Assembly: GCF_017916505.1 (NCBI RefSeq)
Contig: NZ_JAFMSZ010000001.1
Coordinates: forward strand, 434,001-498,000
Origin: Naasia sp. SYSU D00057
Lineage (GTDB): Bacteria; Actinomycetota; Actinomycetes; Actinomycetales; Microbacteriaceae
Length of the DNA stretch: 64,000 bases
Reading direction: 5' to 3'
The notes beneath the pieces were generated by a model, which was not told the DNA's origin, made no database searches, and saw only the letters and a list, made by a program, of their open reading frames with translations. Below are positions 17,253 to 45,045 of this stretch, in pieces. Position numbers and translations under genes: made by a program. The first letter of the stretch is position 1; each line of letters begins with the position of its first letter.

Positions 17253-17393
17253 CTCGGCGATTGAGGAGCGCCCCGCAGGGGCGCGTCTCGAAATCCCGCG
17301 ACGCGTCTCAGGACTCTGCCACAGCGGGAGCAGTCCCAGCGCACGTCGCGTGATTTCGAGACGGCCGCTGCGCGGCCTCCTCAATCACCGGAG
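17253..17393. repeat. Long palindromic intergenic repeat, copy A
   Basis: A 141-bp imperfect palindrome. Outer arms are CTC(C)GG(T/C)GATTGAGGAG-type (17253-17266 and 17377-17393); inside each arm is a GC mini-hairpin (GCGCCCC-gca-GGGGCGC on the left, GGCCGC-tgc-GCGGCC-like on the right); then come 19-bp arms at 17285-17303 and 17344-17362 that match at 18 of 19 positions and contain GTCTCGAAATC. Related copies lie at 43611-45023 (interrupted by an IS) and 51978-52113. Confidence 0.85.
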
Positions 17394-43594: not shown

Positions 43595-43721
43595 GTCGTT
43601 CCCCGGCCCCGGTGGTTGAGGAGGCCGCGCAGCGGCCGTTTCGAAACCGCGCGACCTGCGTCGAGAACCCAGCGACGCTCGTGGCTGAGTCCGGAGACAA
43701 GGTTGCCTGATTTCGAAGCTC

Positions 43722-44771
43722 CTATTGCGTCAAGGCCTGGAGCACGGGGTGGATTTCGCGGACCAGGTGTCGTTTGAGGAGGCGGATGGCGTCTCGTTTG
43801 GTCTTGCCGCGGGCCATGGTGCGGGCGATGTAATCGACGGTTCTGGGGTCGCGGCGTAGTCGGCCGAGGGCGATGCGGTGGATGGCGGCGTTGCCGTCGC
43901 GGTTGCCGCCCCGGTCGCAGCGGAACCTGGAGCTGTTGCCCGAGGACACCGGAACCGGGGCGATGCCGAAGAGATGCGCCAGGGCTGCCTCGGTGGGGAT
44001 TCGGCGGGTGTTCTGCCCGGCGGCGACCAGCAGGGCGGCGGCGGTGTCCGGGCCGATCGCGGGGATCGCCAGCAGGGTGGGTGCGGCCTGCTCGAGCAGC
44101 GCCTGCAGCTGCTGTTGGAGCTGGCGGGCCTGGTTCCGGCAGTCCAGCCAGCGGGCGGCATGCAGGGCGAGGACGCTGCCCAGCGCCGCGCTGACCGGGT
44201 CAGTGGTCGCGGGCCGGGACGATGCAAGGGCTTGGGCCAGGCGCAGTGCGGTGGGCTGCCGGAACTGCTCCCGAAACTCGGCCGGCGAGGTGACCAGAAA
44301 GGTGCGGATCTGGTTCATGATCTGGGTCTGTTGGCGCACCACCAGGCGCCGGGTGTCGCGCAGCAGCCGGATCGCCTGGACCACCCCGGTGCTGTCTTTG
44401 GGGACTGCGGTCGCGCGGCCGCTGAGCGCGGCGCGGGCGGCGGTGAACGCGTCCGCGGTGTCGGTCTTTCCCCGCCGGCGCCGGTCGGACTTGTCCCCCG
44501 GACTGGTCTCGACCACCCGCCAACCCCGTTCCAGCAGGAACCTGGTCAGCGCCGCCCCATAGGAGCTGGTGCCCTCCACCGCCGCGACCTCGACCGGGCC
44601 GAACGCCTCGACCCAGTCCGCGAGCTGCCAATAGCCGGCCGGGGTGGCTGGGAAGGACCGGTCGGCCAGCTCCCGGCCGGTCCGGTCGAGGACCGCGGCG
44701 TGATGCCGGTCCCGGTGGGTGTCGACACCGACGAACACGCCCTGGGCTGGTGAAGCCTGGTTTGTCATCAT
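43722..44771 (-). CDS. IS110 family transposase (DEDD recombinase)
   Basis: A 349-residue recombinase. The N-terminal RuvC-like DEDD domain has Asp17 (GVDTHRD), Glu66 (VEGTSSYG), Asp104 and Asp107 (KTDTADA). The C-terminal Tnp (Transposase_20) domain has the helix-hairpin-helix AIPAIGPDTAAALL and the serine-containing block SSGNSSRF (about 276-283) followed by GNRDGNAAIHRIALGRLRRD. Both catalytic parts appear intact and the frame is unbroken, so the element may be active. The two tandem ATG codons at 44771 and 44768 are both possible starts; a weak GAGAGGCAGG precedes them. G+C is a little lower than the neighbours. Confidence 0.95.
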   Translation of the reverse strand: MMTNQASPAQGVFVGVDTHRDRHHAAVLDRTGRELADRSFPATPAGYWQLADWVEAFGPVEVAAVEGTSSYGAALTRFLLERGWRVVETSPGDKSDRRRRGKTDTADAFTAARAALSGRATAVPKDSTGVVQAIRLLRDTRRLVVRQQTQIMNQIRTFLVTSPAEFREQFRQPTALRLAQALASSRPATTDPVSAALGSVLALHAARWLDCRNQARQLQQQLQALLEQAAPTLLAIPAIGPDTAAALLVAAGQNTRRIPTEAALAHLFGIAPVPVSSGNSSRFRCDRGGNRDGNAAIHRIALGRLRRDPRTVDYIARTMARGKTKRDAIRLLKRHLVREIHPVLQALTQ

Positions 44772-44988
44772 TGACCTGCCTCTCGAGAAGGTGAAAGGCG
44801 CAGGCCGGGGCGAGCAGACAACTCAGTGAACAGGGCTTGTTGCCGCAGGCTCCTATCAAGTCATGAACGTCCCGGTCTGCGCTGCTTCAGCGCCCGGACG
44901 GGCCGACACTTCGAAATCGAGACAGCCCAACAGGCGTCAGAGACACACCACAGTCAGACCCGCCCGGAACGCCACCATCACATCACTG
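44772..44988 (-). ncRNA. Putative bridge RNA region of the IS110 element
   Basis: The 217-nt non-coding left end upstream of the transposase, the place where IS110-group elements encode a bridge RNA. In element orientation it contains ATAGGAGC (complement of 44849-44856), matching the element's 3' terminus ATAGGAGCT, then TCACTGAG (complement of 44822-44829), the reverse complement of its 5' terminus CTCAGTGA; a short GGC-aacaa-GCC hairpin lies between. Further 5', GATTTCGAAG (complement of 44909-44918) is the exact reverse complement of the chromosomal flank plus core, CTTCGAAATC. A strong hairpin (CGCTG-aag-CAGCG core, 44868-44898) separates the two guide areas. The RNA ends are not known; the left-target guide is not clear. 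Confidence 0.6.
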
Positions 44989-45045
44989 AGACGCCCGCTG
45001 CGCGGGCTCCTCAATCACCGGAGAACCGGAGTCCGGGCGCATGAA

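Follow-up and report, generated by a model that had tools for sequence, protein, structure and literature searches.

Among insertion sequences, 85.7% of the IS110 group and 93.0% of the IS1111 group have a predicted bridge RNA (PMC11208160), and targeting of repetitive extragenic palindromic (REP) sequences by IS110 elements had been described by 2006 (PMC1525189). In IS621 of E. coli the circular form of the element creates a promoter for the upstream RNA (PMC11208160). Target and donor of IS621 have a CT core in common, in which the T is almost invariant (PMC11208158), and, once strands have been exchanged, the bases that follow each right guide pair with the other DNA partner (Hiraizumi et al., PMC11208158); pairing of these 'handshake' bases with the cognate DNA hinders the exchange (PMC11208158). 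ISAar29 is one of six diverse elements that serve as worked bridge-RNA examples (Extended Data Fig. 10c of Durrant et al. 2024, PMC11208160). Here we analyse a stretch of 64,000 nt from Naasia sp. SYSU D00057 (contig NZ_JAFMSZ010000001.1, positions 434,001 to 498,000; denoted the window). Judged from its sequence, 43716–44988 of the window is one IS110-group element with a DEDD transposase and an upstream bridge RNA, and we are highly confident that it is an RNA-guided insertion sequence.

43716–44988, minus strand: whole IS110-group element, 1273 bp, with the shared C counted once at the left end; junctions taken from intact REP copies
43722–44771, minus strand: transposase (recombinase) of 349 amino acids, with DEDD residues (D17, E66, D104, D107) and S277

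The transposase matches DEDD_Tnp_IS110 (expectation value E 2.4e-24) and Transposase_20 (E 1.4e-14) of Pfam, as well as NCBIfam NF033542 ('IS110 family RNA-guided transposase') with 184.3 bits at a cut-off of 140. D17, E66, D104, D107 and S277 are invariant in an alignment of 18 proteins and align with IS621 and ISCro4 in a search of solved structures. The protein is predicted to combine the DEDD RuvC-like domain and the Tnp domain with catalytic serine that define the IS110 group. The non-coding left end (44772–44988, 217 nt) holds the RNA, and the right end extends 6 nt past the stop codon (43716–43721), an arrangement that fits this group. The 3.36 Mb genome contains one full-length copy of the element and two further weak matches, both short.

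A first-pass annotation of this DNA had proposed an IS110 element with a bridge RNA upstream of its transposase and had suggested a covariance-model fold of the region. The transposase models score above their cut-offs, and a covariance model (R1) finds the RNA at 44968–44802 of the minus strand with 86.5 bits (E 3.9e-17). R1 was built from 24 relatives with the window element excluded from training; 24 of 32 listed stretches entered the alignment, the longer and odd ones being excluded. The match is the sole one within the window at E up to 1 and the only place in the whole genome at E up to 0.001. The single-sequence fold already contains two long hairpins with internal loops. The consensus of the 24 relatives likewise has two stem-loops, and the segments that match the element ends and the flanks, which might have been buried in stems, all lie in the internal loops of this covarying structure.

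44802–44968, minus strand: bridge RNA core, target-binding and donor-binding hairpins (R1)
44940–44948, minus strand: left-target guide GUGUGUCUC, placed by R1 columns, pairs with flank GGGCGTCTC
44921–44938, minus strand: upper hairpin of the target-binding loop (single-sequence fold and R1)
44912–44918, minus strand: right-target guide GAUUUCG, 7/7 pairs with CGAAATC
44909–44911, minus strand: target-loop handshake bases AA plus G, pair with T43716, T43717 and C43718 of the element's own 3' end
44849–44856, minus strand: left-donor guide AUAGGAGC, 8/8 with the element's 3' end
44834–44846, minus strand: upper hairpin of the donor-binding loop (single-sequence fold and R1)
44824–44829, minus strand: right-donor guide UCACUG, 6/6 with CAGTGA at the element's 5' end
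44822–44823, minus strand: AG, the handshake bases of the donor loop, complementary to T44989 and C44990 of the target
43718–43726, minus strand: left-donor sequence AATAGGAGC, overlaps the transposase stop codon TAG (43724–43722)

The R1 fold is supported by compensatory change. In the alignment 91.6% of cells are paired, compared with a shuffled mean of 74.8% (reached by 0/500 shuffles), and the covariation score is 0.510 versus 0.191 after shuffling (0/500 reach it) and 0.073–0.165 for slid versions. Both sides have changed at 17 of the 27 consensus pairs, a number that 5/500 shuffles reach. R1 was run against 90 sources, namely the window and 89 loci, among which the 24 training members match by construction. 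Matches at E up to 1e-4 were found in 89 of them; locus L063 is the sole source without one.

The strings quoted in the first-pass annotation are present on the minus strand, ATAGGAGC at 44856–44849, TCACTGAG at 44829–44822 and GATTTCGAAG at 44918–44909. Among 20,000 shuffles of the 189 nt 44802–44990, ATAGGAGC occurs in 3 and TCACTGAG in 121, but the two never occur in the same one, and GATTTCGAAG occurs in none; these shuffles are segment swaps that roughly keep dinucleotides, and mixing may be incomplete, which biases toward retention. The donor guides match the element ends (8/8 and 6/6) in the order that had been proposed, left (44856–44849) and then right (44829–44824). GATTTCGAAG had been read as a 10-nt match to the flank: seven of its bases do pair with the flank, including the shared C, whereas the final three are complementary to CTT at the end of the element itself. 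The segment 44956–44965, formerly a candidate for the left-target guide, is paired in a stem in both the single-sequence fold and R1 and was rejected; homology places the guide at 44948–44940.

The target is recognizably a host REP-like palindrome. GTCTCGAAATC, the intact target sequence, has 55 exact copies in the genome (0 for the backwards-pattern control), and the palindrome stem pattern has 61 matches at up to 2 mismatches (5 for the control). Intact copies mostly run on as GTCTCGAAATCAC or near variants.

44988–45021, minus strand: left half of the interrupted REP-like palindrome (repeat pattern searches)
43705–43715, minus strand: right part of the interrupted repeat, CGAAATCAGGC (intact copies)
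43609–43648, plus strand: neighbouring uninterrupted REP-like copy in opposite orientation (repeat pattern searches)

The left junction reads GGGCGTCT-C-AGTGATG and the right junction AATAGGAGCTT-C-GAAATC. Because intact host copies read GTCTCGAAATC, the T before CGAAATC belongs to the element. Most likely, the pre-insertion site was GGGCGTCT-C-GAAATC and the element is AGTGATG...AATAGGAGCTT, the ends sharing one C (44988/43715). The intact REP is restored with only this C shared, as expected for insertion at a specific site without target duplication. The earlier proposal that both ends carry CT and that the circle is joined there does not survive this comparison, and a CT core was rejected on the intact REP copies. 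Similarly, the right flank CTTCGAAATC, previously taken as chromosomal, includes element bases. Palindromes of the GGGC type fit the left guide at 8/9 positions, compared with 7/9 for the commoner GGCC type (wobble included); the element is inserted in a GGGC copy, but this is a single event. The REP-like repeats often occur in inverted pairs some 60–75 bp apart, resembling bacterial interspersed mosaic elements (for example C11:451285 and C11:451352 of genome G000, the window's host; 17363–17384 and 43616–43637 in window numbering), and the element appears to interrupt the second repeat of such a pair.

Relatives were collected by an alignment-based contig scan, of which the best 80 of 503 were kept; a contig scan with a single protein as query confirmed nothing. 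A transposase frame was present at 150 loci. Of these, 57 were truncated or had no left-donor motif, and end-finding failed for 17 of the other 93; the 76 loci that remained were grouped into 36 clusters (75% identity). Some of them (L042, L043 and L045) probably have a misplaced left end, which lowers the scores. Ends were located from the donor guides, and the bases examined for target guides and handshake were unused in this step. Among the matches listed (396 order, 398 family and 394 class genomes sampled, with E limits of 1e-60, 1e-60 and 1e-75), the closest relative has ∼ 50% amino-acid identity. There is therefore no near-identical copy at a second site in these samples, and phages gave no transposase match at E 1e-40. 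One subgroup, mostly proteobacterial, has right ends TTAGAAGGGCGTC instead of ATAGGAGC (L095, L102, L118, L141, L143, L149, L151).

With the shared base numbered 0 (C0), the left-target guide of the window pairs at 8/9 positions (seven Watson–Crick, one wobble, one mismatch), namely −8, −6, −5 (the wobble), −4, −3, −2, −1 and C0, and the right-target guide pairs from C0 to +6. Across the 36 clusters in fixed register, covariation with the flank is seen for the left guide at −8 to −2 (0/5000 shuffles each) and −1 (16/5000) and is absent at −9 and +1; for the right guide it is seen at +1 to +5 (0/5000 each) and is absent at +6. C0 is uninformative, because it hardly varies. When the window guides are compared with the targets of all 36 clusters in this register, their own target is best for both (left 8/9, next 6; right 7/7, next 5), which agrees with the earlier view that the element sits at its predicted target. 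In free register, where the best match anywhere in the loop region counts, own flanks of the 36 clusters score above permuted ones both on the left (7.39 versus 6.29) and on the right (7.29 versus 6.26; 0/5000 permutations in each case), and the window's right flank ranks 1st of 36. A further check from the first-pass annotation, whether the right-target guide changes with the right flank, came out positive in the relatives, none of which was found with an identical 44909–44918 segment. The target guides thus covary with the insertion site.

These data make it very improbable that what lies upstream of the transposase is its structured leader or an antisense regulator, and that the matches to ends and flank are relics of past recombination and not guides. 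A plain leader predicts neither the covariation with flanks, which falls exactly in the two internal loops, nor the pairing of handshake bases with the non-cognate partner described below. Scarcely credible is the proposal that the REP is recognized as a DNA structure by the recombinase itself, the RNA serving the element ends only. The target is indeed palindromic, and several IS110 elements are reported to insert in REPs (PMC1525189). However, flanks follow guides across the 36 clusters, and relatives with other guides lie in other repeats (genomes G336, G461 and G559, in repeats matched by CTMCTCGACCWACGG) or in transposase codons (cluster L012, 14/14). In hosts of the same bacterial family, relatives L005, L037 and L038 occupy REP-like repeats with 28, 4 and 28 pattern matches in their own genomes and 0 in the window's. 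L005, L030, L037 and L038 all sit in host REP-like repeats unlike that of the window, with matching left guides, such that guides appear to follow the host's repeat repertoire.

In cluster L012, all 14 members (L012, L016, L017, L020, L024, L031–L033, L040, L041, L044, L112, L121, L152) are inserted at the same codons of the DDE region of transposase genes, a type of site also described as the target of ISEc21. When their flanks are joined, a transposase reading frame with [YF]DNA results in 14/14 members, which is an independent check on the boundary model.

A usable anchor was available in 32 of 36 clusters, and handshake bases were compared in these. Target-loop bases form Watson–Crick pairs with donor −1 in 30/32 and donor −2 in 28/32, compared with 3 for target −1 and 7 (+15 wobble) for target −2. 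Donor-loop bases pair with target −1 in 29/32 and target −2 in 27/32, compared with 1 for donor −1 and 4 (+5 wobble) for donor −2. The crosswise pairs at donor −2 (28/32 versus a shuffled mean of 17.6) and target −2 (27/32 versus 13.9) are reached by 0/5000 shuffles; that at target −1 covaries weakly (161/5000) and that at donor −1 carries no information, because donor −1 is always T. In the window AA faces TT of the donor and AG faces CT of the target, so that handshake bases pair with the non-cognate DNA. Gene, RNA fold, guides, covariation, target and junctions are all features that we read from the DNA itself.

Read from both junctions, target and donor agree at C0 in 34/36 clusters. Of the two exceptions, L043 probably has a misplaced left end and L012 really has T at the left junction. 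Agreement falls to 1/36 at −1 and 4/36 at +1, where 9.5 are expected by chance. The single shared base is backed by intact repeats for the window, for L005 (G336) and for L038 (G461); CTMCTCGACCWACGG occurs 28 times in each of these two genomes (controls 0), the joined flank of L038 itself departing from the pattern in the final base. The junction falls at C in those multi-copy clusters that were examined. A core made up of the two bases left of the shared C was considered for the relatives and dropped, as intact sequences show a single shared base. Relative to IS621, the RNA sequence in the handshake area suggests that C0 corresponds to position 8, and the spacing to the upper stem points to 9. 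The left-donor guide does not reach as far as the shared C, pairing at that base in 0/36 clusters and at donor −2 in 1/36 (+2 wobble; 44848–44846 in the window), unlike IS621.

The CT core dinucleotide of IS621 is thus not present in the window element, where only C is common to target and donor; we take this core as a trait of IS621 and its orthologues and not as required of every IS110 element. Tentatively, we suggest that the mostly actinobacterial clade is a single-base-core variant, in which the top strand would be exchanged directly after C and the handshake bases would read the two bases to its left crosswise. This is plausible, if not the reading we would back. If true, the core rule derived from IS621 is narrower than thought, which bears on the choice of recombinases as tools.

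Several observations weigh against an RNA-guided, functional element. The single genomic copy means that there is no second insertion by the window element. The orthologous intergenic region of eight congeners holds neither the element nor the window's REP (simple pattern) and yields no empty site, so the empty site was taken from paralogous REP copies. The left-target guide has one mismatch and one wobble, and in free register the window's left flank ranks only 8th of 36, its best match lying inside the stem to which the first-pass annotation had pointed. The five copies of cluster L035, all in one genome, have identical right guides and right flanks that vary beyond +1, and the left flank is CCACCGA in every copy; some members thus lean on the left guide, like IS621 with its short right guide. 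Rfam gave no match for the region at the gathering threshold, and R1 does not recognize the RNA of IS621 (best 5.7 bits, E 1.6). Donor-guide pairing counts for the family are partly circular, as the ends were located using those guides. Finally, target and donor both have T at −1, a combination that no other of the 36 clusters shows, so that discrimination rests on −2; together with the hindrance reported for IS621, this suggests that the copy could be a poor mover.

Some of these points could also indicate a decayed copy that retains the ancestral architecture and has lost movement. We consider this unlikely, though far from negligible: it would account for the single copy, the mismatch in the left-target guide and the T at −1 in both partners, which on the IS621 data may hamper exchange. 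Against it, the reading frame is open throughout and keeps every catalytic residue, the RNA has preserved its fold and guides, the right-target guide pairs 7/7 and the handshake bases fit both partners.

43728–43733, minus strand: TTGACG, a −35-like box that would adjoin the left end in a circle

For an RNA-guided element, the following scheme can be proposed by homology with IS621, from which circle, transcription, catalysis and the timing of handshake pairing are borrowed. The DEDD-serine recombinase would excise the element as a circle, whose joined ends would create a promoter for the upstream bridge RNA. TTGA[CT] occurs in the right end of 33/36 clusters, placed such that the left end would follow within promoter reach; no clear −10 box is seen. 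The left-target (44948–44940) and right-target (44918–44912) guides of the first hairpin would pair with the host REP-like palindrome, and the left-donor (44856–44849) and right-donor (44829–44824) guides of the second with the joined element ends. Strands would be exchanged at the shared C (44988/43715), after which two or three bases past each right guide would pair with the other DNA partner.

Several described systems resemble this locus. IS621 has an upstream two-hairpin RNA with the same guide order, handshake bases after the right guides and a DEDD and serine recombinase (PMC11208160, PMC11208158), and its target is also a REP (PMC1525189). The two differ in that the proteins are distant (profile E 1.2e-19), the RNA of IS621 escapes R1, only C is shared here in place of the CT core, and the left-donor guide stops before the shared base, whereas that of IS621 is reported to run up to the core C (PMC11208158). 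The best profile match is ISCro4 (IS110-type transposase, structure 9t56; E 1.5e-20), with low sequence similarity. In ISEc21 (IS110 type, seekRNA) an upstream non-coding RNA sets the target (PMC11187229); likened by description and not by sequence, its targets, DDE codons of IS3-family transposases (PMC11187229), resemble those of cluster L012 and not that of the window element. ISAar29 and the five other elements of Durrant et al. 2024 share a predicted bridge RNA with target and donor guides, a likeness drawn from a figure legend and not from sequence. Readable guides in an actinobacterial element had been regarded as new by the first-pass annotation; guides of ISAar29 are already published (PMC11208160), and many of the actinobacterial relatives show the same readable pattern. 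The literature matches listed included no paper describing IS110 elements that occupy REPs of actinobacteria, which is weak evidence of absence. We take ISAar29 to be actinobacterial, 'Aar' presumably denoting Arthrobacter aurescens by the IS naming convention. As bridge RNAs across the IS110 family and REP-targeting IS110 elements were already known, the element is not a new kind of RNA-guided recombinase. Same-family relatives carry different guides in different host REP-like repeats, so that retargeting can be followed in nature. We regard the element as an unusually complete member of the bridge-RNA recombinases, a kind discovered in 2024, with a possible core variant at the level of its clade: a natural bridge RNA, in a clade far from IS621, to which all four guides and both handshake pairs can be assigned.
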